Positions 2,327 to 41,521 of a DNA stretch of 41,917 nt are shown here, piece by piece. The notes under the pieces are model-generated. The model did not search any database. It worked only from the letters and a program-made list of their open reading frames with translations, and was not told the DNA's origin. The position numbers and the translations under genes are program-made. Position 1 is the first letter of the stretch. Each line of letters begins with the position of its first letter. Source of the DNA: a virus; the IMG/VR virus record IMGVR_UViG_3300037427_001752, positions 1-41,917 of that record, one strand, 5' to 3'.

Positions 2327-4198
2327 ATGGCATCAACATCAAGCTTATACGGCGGCTCTGGCGGCGTAAATGATATCTACACCGACTCAACAGCGACAGT
2401 CGGGACGGGTAGTGTTGTCGCTGGTGAATCGCTGAAGTTAGATTCGACCGGACAGTTACTCCCACTCACATATCAAAAGATAGCTAACGTAGAAAGAAGT
2501 TCGACGGATATCAACACCCCCACCAACAACTACTACAACGCATCTACATCTGCTCAATACGGTAACCCAGTGCTACCTGATGGGCGATCCATCTATTTTT
2601 TACAGTATAGCGGTGGTGATGCACATTGCGTATTGCTCGAAAAGGACGGTAAAACCCGAGCTGGGACTAGTTACACACTCCTTGATCAATCTGGAAATAC
2701 ATCAGGTAATCAGTTTGTCGTCTGGCAGGTGGGCGAGACTGCCAGTGTTTATATGATAGGAATTGCTTATCGCTCGTACTACAACAATTACACATATATC
2801 TATCAAAAGCTCTTCATAGTCACTGTCTCGAAAACAAGCAACACACTCAATAATTATGCGATGCCCACCAGTTATTACACGAACGCTGTTTATAGTAGTT
2901 ATTCAAATTGGGAACAGCGCCTCATCGATCATAGAGATGTAAATAGCTGGCAGACATGCAGGAGCGATGACATACATCTAATTCTCGCACCATACACATC
3001 GGATCTGAACTATAGAGCTACTGCTTTTGCTGTCCAATCCAATGGAAATTTCTATTCGTCTGGGGGAACAGATTATGAAGATTTAGCGCATGTTACTCCC
3101 CTAAGCGCTATAGACATAGTCAAAATAGATGACGCGGCTGGCATCTTTTTGGTTATGCACGAAACAGCCTCAGGGACACAGACTCTTACAAAACTAGTTG
3201 TGGGGTCTGATGCGTCGATCACTGCATCCACAGTCGCAACTATAAACAGCTCGTACTCCGGCATGCATTCCAACCTTAATAGAGCTAATACAAATATGGT
3301 TGGTCATGGCACAGGAAGTAAGAACCTATGCTTTTTCGACAATTACTCCGACACGGGTTCCCAGAAGAAAATTGACTTTCAGCCCTGCACTTATAACAGT
3401 TCGACTGATGCCCTAACGTGGGGGACTTATGCTGAGTTGGACACGCCAACTGTCAACGGCACTCAAGTTGAAATGTACAGCACTTACAGAAAACAACGCA
3501 GGTCGAGATGGACTTATGCCTCTGCCTCCAAAAAAATATTCTTCGCCGACATAACAAACGACAAGGGACCGGGATTAGTTCTCGACACGCAAAACAGTAC
3601 GCTTAAAGCAGCTAACCTGCTACCAGAGCTGTCGTCTACTTCGATTACCGCAGTGTTAACGGCGAGTAAGGACGGGACCGAATTAATCATGCTCAACGAG
3701 AACCCTAGTACTGTGCCGTACCTCTCTGTTCTATACCCTTTCGGTATAGATACTGGTTCGCTGGTGACTACTTCCGCTGCTGCTGTTGCGCGTGAAGCAG
3801 GGGTGATTGGCGAAACGATTAATGTATCACTGATTGATGGCATTACAAGCTCGTCTGATCTTCCAACGACTCATTATCTCAAGAAAAACGATTTGTTTTT
3901 CCCTTACACTACTTTTGTAGACGGTGTTGCCGTCGCAGGTGGTGGAGCAGCATCCGTCATCAAAAGTATACAAAGAGGTCTTGCTCTCGTGAACGCTAGT
4001 GCTGGCACTGAGGTTACTTTTAACGCGGTTGATCTCGATAAAACGTCCATCAATCTTTCTGGTGGTACTAACTACAATAACGCTATTGGTGTTTCGCCTT
4101 GGATAGATACTATTACCACAACATCTATGAAAATTAGAACGAGCAATTACAGCTCATCCACCGGTTATGTATATTGGGAGGTAACAGAATATGTCTGA
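2327..4198 (+). CDS. Large putative receptor-binding fibre protein
   Basis: This 623-aa protein has no signal peptide and no known catalytic motif. It begins with MASTSSLYGGSGGVNDIY, a Gly/Ser-rich anchor-like start. Many short aromatic beta segments follow (Tyr/Asn/Ser-rich, such as YYNNYTYIYQKLFIVTVSKT), consistent with a beta-propeller or beta-helix receptor-binding region. Near residues 490-500 comes TSAAAVAREAGVIGETINVS, typical of fibre collar regions. The last seven codons overlap the next gene, a predicted fibre chaperone, as expected for a fibre/chaperone pair. Codon use is visibly richer in C- and G-ending codons than in genes on either side, which suggests module exchange. The fibre role is inferred. 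Confidence 0.6.
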   Translation: MASTSSLYGGSGGVNDIYTDSTATVGTGSVVAGESLKLDSTGQLLPLTYQKIANVERSSTDINTPTNNYYNASTSAQYGNPVLPDGRSIYFLQYSGGDAHCVLLEKDGKTRAGTSYTLLDQSGNTSGNQFVVWQVGETASVYMIGIAYRSYYNNYTYIYQKLFIVTVSKTSNTLNNYAMPTSYYTNAVYSSYSNWEQRLIDHRDVNSWQTCRSDDIHLILAPYTSDLNYRATAFAVQSNGNFYSSGGTDYEDLAHVTPLSAIDIVKIDDAAGIFLVMHETASGTQTLTKLVVGSDASITASTVATINSSYSGMHSNLNRANTNMVGHGTGSKNLCFFDNYSDTGSQKKIDFQPCTYNSSTDALTWGTYAELDTPTVNGTQVEMYSTYRKQRRSRWTYASASKKIFFADITNDKGPGLVLDTQNSTLKAANLLPELSSTSITAVLTASKDGTELIMLNENPSTVPYLSVLYPFGIDTGSLVTTSAAAVAREAGVIGETINVSLIDGITSSSDLPTTHYLKKNDLFFPYTTFVDGVAVAGGGAASVIKSIQRGLALVNASAGTEVTFNAVDLDKTSINLSGGTNYNNAIGVSPWIDTITTTSMKIRTSNYSSSTGYVYWEVTEYV

Positions 4199-19768: not shown

Positions 19769-20696
19769 TGTAAGTCCCTATAATGCTTGATATTTTGTCT
19801 TGTGGAAGTTCTAATATATAAGTAAAGTATTCTGCTAACTCTTCTTCTATGCTCATTTCTTTACTAAGAAGAAGCGTGGCTTCTGTACTCCGTTTAACTA
19901 CTTTCTTATCGAGTAGCTCTGAGTTTTTAACTTTAGATAAATCTTGTATATCTCCTTCCAGTTCATATATTGTGTGATGATATGTACTAGGTATCATCTC
20001 TGCTGGGTCTTGTACTGTTTTTCTCAGTAGTTGTGGCAGATCAAATCTGTCCCACATCCATGACCAGTCTTTGTCATTTATTAGTAGATAACCTGTTTCG
20101 ACTATGTTTCTATGAAACGAAGTTGTCATAGGGCTACCTGGGTATACAATGTTTTGTTGTGTATTGCTATGTGCATGTAAGTCGCCAGCAAATACTACGG
20201 GAAAGTCCTCGAATCTTTCTAGGTCAACTTCAGGCTTTACATGCGGAGGAATCTCTCCTCGTACATGAGTAAACAGAGGCCACTTAGTATCAAATGCCTC
20301 TATACTATTCTTTCTGTGTAAATCTGCGTAAGGCAGAACATTAAACCCTCTGTCTTTGTCCACATAGGATAAGTCTGCAATATGAATGAAAGGATTAATA
20401 TCCCTGCTCACTTGCTTTAGCTGACTAAAAAAGGTTTTATTCTTCTTTGTGGCTTCGTGATTCCCATCATAAATTAGAGTAGGTATTCCTACTTGCCTTA
20501 TGAATGTGAAGTACAACTCCAACTCTTCCATAGTTGGAAGACGATCAAAGAGATCGCCCCCAATTATGTGCATACTACACTCGTTTTCTATTTCATGAAT
20601 TTGGTTAAAGAAGGCTTCATACCTTCTCTTTGCCCAGTCAACTGGGACATTTTTCTGTCCCAGCTTTAAGTGCCAGTCTGCTGTGAATAAAATCAC
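19737..20696 (-). CDS. SbcD/Mre11-like nuclease (T4 gp47 / T5 D12 type)
   Basis: This 319-aa calcineurin-like phosphoesterase shows the Mre11 metal-binding motifs: D7-x-H9 (FTADWH), G-D48 (IIGGDLFDR), N79-H80 (YDGNHE), then VFAGDLHAHS (G-D-x-H-x-H). With the SbcC-like ATPase it forms the dimanganese nuclease that processes double-strand ends. The 3' end overlaps sbcC by 32 bases, and its start overlaps the putative SSB gene by 4 bases, so the three are probably made together. Confidence 0.93.
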   Translation of the reverse strand: MILFTADWHLKLGQKNVPVDWAKRRYEAFFNQIHEIENECSMHIIGGDLFDRLPTMEELELYFTFIRQVGIPTLIYDGNHEATKKNKTFFSQLKQVSRDINPFIHIADLSYVDKDRGFNVLPYADLHRKNSIEAFDTKWPLFTHVRGEIPPHVKPEVDLERFEDFPVVFAGDLHAHSNTQQNIVYPGSPMTTSFHRNIVETGYLLINDKDWSWMWDRFDLPQLLRKTVQDPAEMIPSTYHHTIYELEGDIQDLSKVKNSELLDKKVVKRSTEATLLLSKEMSIEEELAEYFTYILELPQDKISSIIGTYNDYSQTATLE

Positions 20697-30198: not shown

Positions 30199-30927
30199 TT
30201 AGGAAGCAGCTTTCTCTTTCTTTGCAGCTCCATCATAGTCTGACGCTGTCAGGCCACGACGGGTAAGCATAGTTTTGACGCCTCGTGCAGTTTTACCGAT
30301 TTGCTCTGCAATCGACTCAACTGTCATTTCAGACACATCGCCCAGCTCAGCCAAAGGATCTTCCTTTGCAGAGCCTTTTGTATGCTCCTGACGGGGGATA
30401 GCGTCAATGTCGCCGGAACGAAGAAGGCTAAGAGCCTTGCCTCGAATACTGTTTACAGTACGGTCTAACTTCTCTGCGATTGCTTCCACAAACGCTCCGT
30501 CGTTAACCATAGCTACGAAAGTCTCTTCTTCTGAAGGAGAGTAAGTTCGTACAGTCTCCACTTTGGGAGCAGCTTTGACATGGTCAGTAAGTTCCATAGA
30601 AAGAATCTTACCTTGGATAGACTTAGCACTAAATGCTCCGCCTTCAAAGTGAGATGCAATCTCTGCGTAGGTATACTGTCCGCTGTTGTCAGAGACAAAA
30701 GCAGAGAGAGTAGTTTCTTGGCTGTCGCTGAAAGCGCGAGCGCTCTTAGCTGAAGCAAGTTCTACGTCAAAACCCATCTTTCGCAGTTTGCTAGAAACTG
30801 ACCGTGTAGTTGTGTCAAGCTGGTCTGCAGCTTCTGCTACAGTAGCTTGAGAGACCGGAGTCTCATCACCGACAAAATTAGTGAGCTCGTCGGTACGCTC
30901 ATCAGTCCACTTAGGCAATGTTGCCAT
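30199..30927 (-). CDS. Multi-HTH DNA-binding protein, possible regulator
   Basis: This 242-aa protein is built from four related helix-turn-helix-like units: VAEAADQLDTTTRSVSSKLR; YAEIASHFEGGAFSAKSIQG; VEAIAEKLDRTVNSIRGKAL; VESIAEQIGKTARGVKTMLT. Each has the A-x-x-L/I...T/S-x-x-S-V/I-x-x-K/R pattern of recognition helices. The build and size (T5 D5, an abundant DNA-binding regulator, is of similar size) suggest a transcription or DNA-coating factor. Homology to D5 is not shown here and is only a suggestion. The 5' end overlaps the ligase C-terminal gene by 17 bases. Confidence 0.65.
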   Translation of the reverse strand: MATLPKWTDERTDELTNFVGDETPVSQATVAEAADQLDTTTRSVSSKLRKMGFDVELASAKSARAFSDSQETTLSAFVSDNSGQYTYAEIASHFEGGAFSAKSIQGKILSMELTDHVKAAPKVETVRTYSPSEEETFVAMVNDGAFVEAIAEKLDRTVNSIRGKALSLLRSGDIDAIPRQEHTKGSAKEDPLAELGDVSEMTVESIAEQIGKTARGVKTMLTRRGLTASDYDGAAKKEKAAS

Positions 30928-36425: not shown

Positions 36426-36625
36426 TACTCTCCCTTTCGTACTTGATCGTTGAGCAGTCTAGTAATTACCCACTCGGGGGCTTCCATAATTCTCAGGTAA
36501 TCTATAGCTTCGTTTTGAGACGCACCATCACCTATCATACCATTCATAGTTATGTACCAGTCAAAAAACTGATCTTCATGCGATCCTTGAAAAGGTTCGT
36601 ATTTGTAGCCCATTCCATTTATCAT
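36425..36625 (-). CDS. Hypothetical small protein
   Basis: This 66-aa protein's ATG (36625) overlaps the preceding stop (ATGA), and its stop overlaps the next start by one base. It reads MINGMGYKYEPFQGSHEDQF then FDWYITMNGMIGDGASQNEA and a helix (IDYLRIMEAPEWVITRLLND). No family is recognised. Confidence 0.6.
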   Translation of the reverse strand: MINGMGYKYEPFQGSHEDQFFDWYITMNGMIGDGASQNEAIDYLRIMEAPEWVITRLLNDQVRKGE

Positions 36626-37194
36626 CTAGTTATCCTCTGTTCATACTCTGCTTCGGTTTCATCCCACCAAAAAGGTTTGTCTCGGTACTTCCAAGACGCG
36701 AAGGTTGCTTTGTCTTTGAGATAGAACTTACGATATGCAGCTATTCCGTCTGAGCCTTTGAGTTCGTCTGGCATGGCTTGAGCAAAATCAGTGAGTCCGT
36801 CTCGTGGTAAGGATATGGGTTCAGGTAAGTTAAGTATAACTTCATGCACGCTTTTGTGCGATTTTCCATATCTGTATCTGTATTCTTCATTAAGGGCAAG
36901 TGCGTAGCAGAATAACCATTCGTAGTTATCCAGTGAGCTACGTGCCCAAATGGTACAAGGATGATTGTACATAGTAGGCAAATAAGGGAAATCTCTATCA
37001 GGGTTTGCCTTTGCTGTTTTAATGATTGCCCACTCTTCTTTCGTAAGTTTTCTAGGAACGAATCCAATGTATTTCTCTACCCAATGATTTGTGCACAGCA
37101 TCTGTGCTGCCTCTAAAGGCATTTTGACAATATGTTTGTCAACGTGATATTCTGCACACTTATCAATGTCTTTGTCTAATATAAAAATGTTCAT
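36622..37194 (-). CDS. Conserved marine phage protein, leaderless mRNA predicted
   Basis: This 190-aa protein begins MNIFILDKDIDKCAEYHVDK, then HIVKMPLEAAQMLCTNHW. This N-terminus is well conserved in cyanophage and other marine phage proteins (M-N-I-F-x-L-D-x-D...H-x-D-K-H-x-V-K-M). A pyrimidine-dimer glycosylase-like fold has sometimes been suggested for such proteins; I cannot confirm it. The gene starts exactly where transcription from P6 should begin: only 6 bases separate TATAAT from the ATG. The true start at this ATG is supported by the conserved first residues. Confidence 0.7.
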   Translation of the reverse strand: MNIFILDKDIDKCAEYHVDKHIVKMPLEAAQMLCTNHWVEKYIGFVPRKLTKEEWAIIKTAKANPDRDFPYLPTMYNHPCTIWARSSLDNYEWLFCYALALNEEYRYRYGKSHKSVHEVILNLPEPISLPRDGLTDFAQAMPDELKGSDGIAAYRKFYLKDKATFASWKYRDKPFWWDETEAEYEQRITR

Positions 37195-39942: not shown

Positions 39943-40101
39943 CTACCTTGGCACTTCATCATCGACTTCTAGTAATCCACGTTCTACTAGATAGTTGACT
40001 GTACCTTCTATTCCCACTTTTTTACCCAGATGCCAGCAATGCGCTCCACACCCGATAAGGCAAAAAGCAAATACTATAAAGCCAGCAATTGTTGTTTCCA
40101 T
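39943..40101 (-). CDS. 52-aa membrane microprotein, first gene of the P7 operon
   Basis: The ATG at 40101 follows GGAGAACTAAT. The product, METTIAGFIVFAFCLIGCGA then HCWHLGKKVGIEGTVNYLVE and RGLLEVDDEVPR, has one transmembrane segment and a conserved-looking cytoplasmic tail (G-I-E-x-x-V-x-Y-L-V-E-x-G-x-L-E-V). The same build is common in marine phages. Being first in the lysis operon, it might be a small holin or antiholin, but this is a guess. Confidence 0.65.
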   Translation of the reverse strand: METTIAGFIVFAFCLIGCGAHCWHLGKKVGIEGTVNYLVERGLLEVDDEVPR

Positions 40102-40138: not shown

Positions 40139-40167
40139 ATTATACTTCATATTAACACTCATGTCAA
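40139..40167 (-). promoter_or_regulatory. Promoter P7 (sigma70-type), divergent with P8
   Basis: On the - strand: TTGACA (40167-40162), 17-base spacer, TATAAT (40144-40139). It fires away from P8; their -35 boxes are only 35 bases apart, so a protein bound between them could control both. It drives the lysis, thyX and SET genes. Confidence 0.9.
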
Positions 40168-40202: not shown

Positions 40203-40231
40203 TTGACATCAACGTCATTCTTTAGTATAAT
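40203..40231 (+). promoter_or_regulatory. Promoter P8 (sigma70-type), predicted leaderless transcript
   Basis: TTGACA (40203-40208), 17-base spacer, TATAAT (40226-40231), then AGTTGC and the ATG at 40238. Transcription should begin at about the A of the ATG. It is the only one of the eight promoters pointing right. Confidence 0.9.
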
Positions 40232-40237
40232 AGTTGC

Positions 40238-40423
40238 ATGAAAAATTATAAAAAGAAACCATGGAGTAAGCAAGAAAGGCTTCTATTAGTTAATAACTAT
40301 TATTTAGTTACTAAACAAAACCTATATGTAATCCTTCCAGATCGAACTCCTAACGCAATAACAAAGCAAGTTGCATACTTAAAGGCTAAGAGGTGGCCGT
40401 TTAAACGTGAAAGTAAAAGTTAG
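40238..40423 (+). CDS. Small HTH (SANT/Myb-like) protein, leaderless mRNA predicted
   Basis: This 61-aa protein begins KKKPWSKQERLLLVNNYYLV, then TKQNLYVILPDRTPNAITKQ and a basic end. The W-S-x-x-E...L-P-x-R-T-x-N-A-I pattern is a small Myb/SANT-like helix-turn-helix found in many phage regulators. The ATG lies 6 bases after the P8 -10 box, so no ribosome binding site can be in the transcript. It overlaps the bS21 gene by 17 bases. It may regulate phage promoters. Confidence 0.7.
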   Translation: MKNYKKKPWSKQERLLLVNNYYLVTKQNLYVILPDRTPNAITKQVAYLKAKRWPFKRESKS

Positions 40424-40607
40424 AAACAATAATATAGAAACTGCTCTGAGAGCCTTCAAGAAGAAAGCAAGTGAAATCGTGTTTGAATATCGAGAACGAC
40501 AGTACTACGATAGCCCAAGCGCAAAACGACATCGAGCTAAAAAAGCGGCACAAACTCGTGAGAAGAGACGCCAAGCTCAAGATAAAACACCAACAAGGAA
40601 ATACTAA
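40407..40607 (+). CDS. rpsU: Ribosomal protein bS21
   Basis: This 66-aa protein starts at GTG (40407). It matches bacterial S21 over its length: KVKVRNNNIETALRAFKKKA, then a VFEYRERQYYDSPSAKRHRA stretch and KKAAQTREKRRQ. Compare the bacterial pattern V-R-E-N-E...A-L-R-x-F-K-R...R-R-x-x-Y-E-x-P-x-x-x-R-x-R-K. bS21 sits on the 30S platform near the anti-Shine-Dalgarno end of 16S rRNA and affects initiation. Phage bS21 genes are known from marine viruses and are thought to exchange into host ribosomes. It is coupled to both neighbours, its stop overlapping the MazG-like start by one base. Confidence 0.88.
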   Translation: MKVKVRNNNIETALRAFKKKASEIVFEYRERQYYDSPSAKRHRAKKAAQTREKRRQAQDKTPTRKY

Positions 40608-40996
40608 TGACACAAGTACAAGGAACTAACTTCGAATTGGTCGGGGACTTTATGGAAGCAATGGGACAAGATATTGAAATGCGTCCTATTCTTCCAGAAG
40701 ATCATATACAAAAACTAAGGTTTGACCTGATTGAAGAAGAACTTGACGAGTTAAAACTTGGAATGGATAACCAAAATTTAATAGAAGTTGCTGACGCACT
40801 TACTGATCTACTTTATGTGATTTATGGGGCAGGACAAGCCTTTGGAATCGACTTAGATGAGTGCTTTCAAGAGGTACACTGTAGCAACATGAGTAAATTA
40901 GGGGAAGATGGACGACCAATAAAAAGGGAAGATGGCAAGGTATTAAAACCTGACACATACTTCCCTCCAAATTTAAAAGATATTTTGTACGAATAG
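40607..40996 (+). CDS. MazG-like nucleotide pyrophosphohydrolase
   Basis: This 129-aa all-alpha NTP pyrophosphohydrolase has the metal motif RFDLIEEELDELKLGMDNQN (E-E-x-x-E-L/E-x-x-x-G) and the second acidic pair VADALTDLLYVIYGAGQAFG (D-x-x-x-D). The C-terminal part (CSNMSKLGEDGRPIKREDGK, VLKPDTYFPPNL) is typical of the phage MazG/phosphoribosyl-ATP pyrophosphohydrolase-like group. It hydrolyses (d)NTPs or alarmones to monophosphates. It is the last gene of the P8 operon, abutting the tRNA that is read in the other direction. Confidence 0.9.
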   Translation: MTQVQGTNFELVGDFMEAMGQDIEMRPILPEDHIQKLRFDLIEEELDELKLGMDNQNLIEVADALTDLLYVIYGAGQAFGIDLDECFQEVHCSNMSKLGEDGRPIKREDGKVLKPDTYFPPNLKDILYE

Positions 40997-41070
40997 TGGC
41001 AGGTCAGTAGGGACTTGAACCCCAACGAACGGTTTTGGAGACCGCTATGCTACCATTACATCACTGACCT
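40997..41070 (-). tRNA. tRNA-Trp (anticodon CCA)
   Basis: The - strand folds into a full cloverleaf: acceptor AGGTCAG/CTGACCT (7 perfect pairs), D arm ATGT/GCAT with a GG-containing loop, anticodon stem GCGGT/ACCGT with loop CTCCAAA (anticodon CCA), T arm TGGGG/CCCTA with loop TTCAAGT, discriminator G and an encoded CCA end. Anticodon CCA reads UGG. The 5' end overlaps the stop of the hydrolase gene by 2 bases, and the 3' CCA abuts the MazG-like gene stop. Confidence 0.95.
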
Positions 41071-41521
41071 ATTTATCTGTATAGAATATATGGTCGCCTA
41101 TTACCGCTGTGCGGTGGTAAGCGTCAGCCCAGTACGGTTGTACTTTGTGGCTGTGATACCAGTATGTATCCTCTGGAACTGTACCCTGCCATCCTTGGCT
41201 CATCACTACATACGCTACTGTATAACATACGTTCCAGTAATACTTATCCTTAGGTCTGTCACTTTTACCATCACAAAACCAACTAAACTGACAGATCCAT
41301 TGATTTTGCACTACTTTTCGTTGCTTTACTACTGAACAAATGTCATTAGGCCAACGTCTATCGTTTACGCGGTTCAGAGTAACCTCTGCAACCGCATACA
41401 TGCCTAAAAAGTCTTGATTACGAGCTTCGTAGTAAATGTTCTTAGCGAGACATTCTACTTCATTTGCCTCTGCTGGTACTGCTATAAATGCACATATTAA
41501 CGCCGCAATTACTTTCCTCAT
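41069..41521 (-). CDS. Secreted SleB-type cell-wall hydrolase
   Basis: This 150-aa protein has an N-terminal Sec signal peptide (RKVIAALICAFIAVPAEA). The cell-wall hydrolase (PF07486, SleB) pattern follows: CLAKNIYYEARNQDFLGMYA with its catalytic Glu, VAEVTLNRVNDRRWPNDICS, and a C-terminal W-Y-H-S-H-K-V-x-P-x-W. It probably cuts peptidoglycan glycan strands. A signal peptide on a phage lysin means export by host Sec rather than through a holin. It is the second lysin in the window, away from the GH24 lysozyme. Confidence 0.88.
   Translation of the reverse strand: MRKVIAALICAFIAVPAEANEVECLAKNIYYEARNQDFLGMYAVAEVTLNRVNDRRWPNDICSVVKQRKVVQNQWICQFSWFCDGKSDRPKDKYYWNVCYTVAYVVMSQGWQGTVPEDTYWYHSHKVQPYWADAYHRTAVIGDHIFYTDK

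Follow-up and report, generated by a model that had tools for sequence, protein, structure and literature searches.

bS21 is the ribosomal protein that phages carry most often (PMC6375957, PMC9976891). The locus considered here belongs to a phage lineage in which bS21 is linked with a small protein, probably a regulator, and with a predicted leaderless start, pairing a phage-made part of the ribosome with an unusual translation route. Leaderless translation is a mode of initiation known on ribosomes that lack bS1 and bS21. The locus lies in a 41.9-kb linear virus fragment, analysed here over its whole length of 41,917 nt (the window), where bS21 is the second gene of a three-gene operon:

40203..40231, plus strand: perfect TTGACA-17-TATAAT promoter, a 12/12 match of the sigma-70 type, 6 nt before the ATG at 40238
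40238..40423, plus strand: predicted HTH (Myb-like) protein of 61 aa, apparently the leaderless head of the operon, with an AlphaFold model and weak Myb and D5-repeat matches
40407..40607, plus strand: bS21 gene starting at GTG and encoding 66 aa; scores exceed the PF01165 and TIGR00030 cut-offs, and PHROG 21469 is matched
40607..40996, plus strand: MazG-like nucleotide pyrophosphohydrolase, the third gene (PF01503, 68.2 bits; phrog_671, E 8e-37)

The reading frame at 40407–40607 is confirmed as a genuine bS21 gene. As the initial annotation had proposed, its 66-aa product matches the family over its full length. The PF01165 search that had been suggested as a check gave 38.9 bits (E 7e-10) against a curated cut-off of 27 bits and covered profile positions 1–54 of 55, and the NCBI equivalog TIGR00030 was matched end to end (positions 1–58 of 58) at 56.3 bits, the curated cut-off being 28.95 bits. 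The protein also matched PHROG 21469 (S21; E 6e-10) and solved bS21 chains, the latter down to E 1.1e-6. Since nearly the whole family model is covered, the match is not a chance one. Among those pairs of close relatives in which dS was measurable, the dN/dS of bS21 was 0.03–0.07, and the protein is therefore under strong purifying constraint. The carriage of bS21 by marine viruses, which the annotation took as known, had indeed been reported for aquatic viruses (PMC6375957, PMC9723584). By analogy with other phage bS21 proteins, it is reasonable to suppose that the window protein may change which mRNAs are started. The best cellular matches, in a pattern-limited scan, were at most 47% identical and do not resolve the host, and no bS21 match was found at E 0.01 in any cultured T5-like phage.

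Within the operon, the start codon of bS21 lies inside the 3' end of the 61-aa gene, giving a 17-nt overlap, with the sequence GAGGTG 11 nt upstream; the ATG of the MazG-like gene shares its first base with the end of the bS21 stop codon and has AAGGA 7 nt upstream. By a simple test on gene starts as listed, without curation, an SD-like core was present upstream of 41 of the 61 listed window genes, and it can therefore be deduced that the phage generally uses SDs.

A gap of 6 nt separates the promoter of the operon from the ATG of the 61-aa gene, so the mRNA should be leaderless. The predicted +1 is the A of that ATG, and the message appears, from the sequence, to begin exactly at the start codon. 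The earlier reading of the operon head as apparently leaderless is thus supported by the 12/12 promoter, by the 6-nt gap and by the relatives, since 88 of the 98 distinct ones retain this spacing. A second promoter of the same kind faces the other way:

40139..40167, minus strand: perfect TTGACA-17-TATAAT promoter that reads divergently towards the lysis-side genes, with an SD leader after it; found by promoter match and kept in relatives
39943..40101, minus strand: 52-aa gene heading the divergent lysis-side transcript, without a Pfam or PHROG family

Small proteins that resemble the 52-aa one by eye open the divergent transcript in the relatives G003 and G009 as well. In the whole window, eight exact TTGACA-17-TATAAT promoters were observed against 0.03 expected by chance. 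Two of the eight have leaderless spacing, to the ATG at 40238 and to that at 37194; one has a 12-nt gap, four precede leaders of normal length that contain SD-like sequences, and one has no clear start nearby. Most of the exact promoters between 21723 and 40231 carry an A/T-rich block before the -35 element, ending in TTC or ATC (AAATAnTTC-like). This shared block suggests one phage promoter class with a UP element or a regulator site. The gene at the second leaderless spacing (36622–37194, minus strand) begins 6 nt after its perfect promoter, and its product matches phrog_624, 'DNA binding protein', and Pyr_excise, the latter just above cut-off. A homologue of this gene is leaderless in G003 and leadered in G009.

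The arrangement is widespread among related viral contigs. A search with a profile of the 61-aa family, which was built mostly from bS21 neighbours and found relatives reaching down to ~39% identity, gave 77 loci, in 72 of which bS21 lay downstream on the same strand within 1.6 kb. The bS21 search, which shares contigs with the first set of loci and is not an independent sample, gave 80 loci; among the 77 new ones that were scored, the 61-aa gene was found in 60 and MazG nearby on the same strand in 58, while 15 were without both. For the leader analysis, 139 loci were reduced to 98 that were distinct by protein and upstream sequence. With the start codon chosen by the best promoter, an ATG at which the proteins share the same conserved first residues, the -10 element stood 5–8 nt before the start (leaderless) in 88 of these loci and 25–39 nt before it in nine, which have gained a leader; the one unclear case is a contig cut inside the gene. 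Clustering at 70% identity left 27 groups, 23 of them leaderless and four leadered. The intergenic gap itself is strongly conserved, and 93 of 97 distinct loci also have a divergent promoter of this class that matches at least 11/12 positions. In 71 of these 93 the divergent promoter is followed by an SD leader, as judged by a simple pattern test, and the locus therefore carries an internal control.

For the 61-aa protein we infer a DNA-binding role, from its sequence and from structural modelling. The AlphaFold model consists of three helices with a mean pLDDT of 88, and a Foldseek search with this model gave no significant fold match (best E 1.8). Myb-like profiles matched four of nine family members weakly (best E 0.011), and a weak match to solved Myb chains was obtained at E 0.004. 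One repeat of the D5 family phrog_323, known from T5-like phages, was also weakly matched (E 0.015), and in several relatives the corresponding small gene matched positions ~91–139 of the D5 profile at E ~1e-4 to 1e-6. The protein differs from D5 in having 61 aa and one predicted HTH, and the window encodes a separate full-length D5 at 30199–30927. In cultured phages, searched with the homologue from locus L014, the sole relative of the 61-aa protein was a weak match at E 0.2.

The D5-like regulator of the window shares 50% identity with its counterpart in Vibrio phage VCPH, which is classed in Demerecviridae, and the DNA polymerase is 44% identical to the VCPH enzyme; ligase, D5, helicase, primase and polymerase follow one another in the VCPH order. 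By D5 and the order of the replication genes, the window phage can be placed as T5-like (demerecvirus-like), a placement that makes no claim to formal membership of Demerecviridae. The fragment also encodes an NAD-dependent ligase, SbcC/D-like nuclease subunits, ribonucleotide reductase, tail-fibre genes and a lysis cassette; terminase and major capsid genes were not identified in its 41.9 kb. Counting strong, long matches only, as the D5 profile also matches control genomes, 16 of 18 tested records with the 61-aa gene matched D5 at E 4e-42 or better; in one of the other two, D5 is divided between the record ends, and the last gave weak matches only. Positions 20000–41917 of the window had no near DNA relatives among cultured phages. 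The phage is probably marine, judging from its relatives and the literature. In one relative, the IscU gene of the operon is close to bacterial IscU, a similarity that fits a proteobacterial host and does not prove it.

How might these elements work together? We give about an even chance to a model in which phage bS21 would join host ribosomes while the leaderless head would let the operon be started at any state of bS21 or the anti-SD. A host RNA polymerase of the sigma-70 type would make the leaderless transcript from the promoter at 40203–40231, and the HTH gene would be initiated through the 5'-terminal-AUG pathway, which needs no SD pairing and would work without bS1 and bS21. bS21 would be translated from its own SD and by coupling, the latter being proposed because its start codon falls within the HTH gene. 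The phage protein would then occupy the site of bS21 on 30S subunits, whether newly made or exchanged, and tune SD-dependent initiation towards phage mRNAs. The HTH protein, for its part, would be a small regulator that binds DNA and acts on promoters of this class, perhaps on the divergent pair at its own locus. All steps beyond the placement of the promoter are ones that we infer. The bS21 of pelagiphage HTVC008M does enter E. coli ribosomes (PMC6375957), leaderless mRNAs are selected by ribosomes lacking bS1, uS2 and bS21 (PMC4929434), and the level of bS21 feeds back on initiation in Flavobacterium (PMC9976891). With this pelagiphage bS21, E. coli ribosomes were left at ~5% activity (PMC6375957), and a benefit to phage translation is therefore putative. 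Many relatives have other, varying genes between the HTH gene and bS21, so translational coupling of these two genes is not general. A more specific version for this T5-like lineage, in our view tentative and somewhat doubtful, is that the leaderless head would allow bS21 to be made without SD recognition, re-equipping ribosomes when SD-dependent initiation is limiting, such that bS21 supply and leaderless translation would form a regulatory loop. With the divergent promoter of the same class as a control, the role of phage bS21 in mRNA choice is testable with two reporters.

It is a distinct possibility, if one that falls short of an even chance, that the leaderless start is unrelated to bS21 and provides a fixed, SD-independent supply of the HTH regulator, much as lambda cI is supplied from pRM, with bS21 and MazG as cargo behind a strong phage promoter. 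In four loci (L073, L074, L075 and L077, of which L075 ends 0.9 kb downstream) the leaderless HTH gene is retained and bS21 was not detected, and the variable genes between HTH and bS21 point the same way, as does the recurrence of leaderless spacing at 36622–37194 in the window and at further genes in other relatives. However, the HTH gene is accompanied by bS21, and bS21 by the HTH gene, in most loci of the reciprocal searches (72/77 and 60/77), and the HTH operon is the one that is leaderless in all three long relatives, the other leaderless genes varying by genome. The link between the HTH gene and bS21 is strong yet not obligatory.

The transcript might also not be truly leaderless, either starting a few bases upstream or acquiring a leader through processing or another promoter. 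The spacing of 7 or 8 nt seen in some relatives allows a leader of 1–2 nt, but the window has a 12/12 promoter at a 6-nt gap, no other plus-strand promoter of at least 10/12 was found between 31710 and 40203, and the gene upstream of the HTH gene is on the opposite strand. Among relatives, moreover, the spacing to the ATG is conserved despite variation in the sequence between the -35 and -10 elements, and we consider a leadered transcript improbable on these sequence grounds. Finally, phage bS21 could have a role away from the ribosome, such as RNA binding, rather than serve as a replacement subunit; an extra-ribosomal role of bS21 is reported for OLE RNA (PMC12054373). The end-to-end match to the TIGR00030 equivalog in a protein under strong constraint, and the finding of another phage's bS21 in ribosomes (PMC6375957), argue against this, and we hold it to be highly improbable.

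Phage bS21 is already known. As far as the literature searched shows, the conserved leaderless HTH-bS21(-MazG) cassette of T5-like phages is undescribed. No description of a T5-like setting for bS21 was found there, and titles and abstracts gave nothing relevant on leaderless starts in T5-like phages or in connection with phage bS21. Lambda cI, when expressed from pRM, is a DNA-binding regulator of a phage whose translation begins at an AUG at the very 5' end of the mRNA; in the present case, by contrast, the apparently leaderless gene is the first of an operon whose products include a ribosomal protein. The pelagiphage HTVC008M and uncultivated aquatic viruses carry phage bS21 of the same family and are likewise aquatic and mostly lytic (PMC6375957). 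HTVC008M is a myovirus, whereas here a T5-like phage has bS21 behind a leaderless HTH head gene; cultivated phages carrying bS21 exceeded 130 kb, and the words 'leaderless' and 'operon' are absent from the main text of that report (PMC6375957). In large Bacteroidetes phages, bS21 was similarly proposed to steer ribosomes to phage mRNAs and has a conserved neighbour gene (PMC9723584). There, bS21 is on the opposite strand beside structural genes and its neighbour is also on the opposite strand, while here bS21 is co-directional behind the HTH gene and most genes have SDs. Autoregulation of bS21 in Flavobacterium johnsoniae offers a further parallel, in that the bS21 state of the ribosome can choose among initiation routes (PMC9976891). 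That system relies on a very strong rpsU SD and an occluded anti-SD, in contrast to an operon head that is apparently without an SD.

The operon is followed by a tRNA gene on the other strand:

40997..41070, minus strand: tRNA-Trp (cca), a neighbour of the operon and probably outside the cassette

The initial annotation had drawn attention to the position of bS21 beside a phage tRNA gene. This holds for the window but not for the relatives in general: among the loci scanned, the adjacency is limited to the window and the near-identical L001, the others, several of them on short contigs, having no tRNA beside bS21, and in G003 the tRNA-Trp is located elsewhere. A functional linkage of tRNA and bS21 is thus unsupported, and the adjacency looks incidental.

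Various other genes were seen around bS21 in relatives. Between the 61-aa gene and bS21 there are IscU-like and IscA-like iron-sulphur assembly genes (L037:6596-7277 and L014:4584-5262; Pfam on L037 only) and 2OG-Fe(II) oxygenase genes (L035:6186-6863, on the same contig as L004, and L027:6180-6758). A basic protein of ~80 aa without a Pfam family is encoded just before bS21 and overlaps it (L039:930-1166, L007:4778-5026). Downstream of the leaderless 61-aa gene of L074, where bS21 was not detected, lies a serine hydroxymethyltransferase gene (L074:6780-7925). A PF07486 cell wall hydrolase gene adjoins the operon in the window (41069–41521, minus strand), and in L150 one is found within the operon (3382–3840), between the 61-aa gene and bS21.
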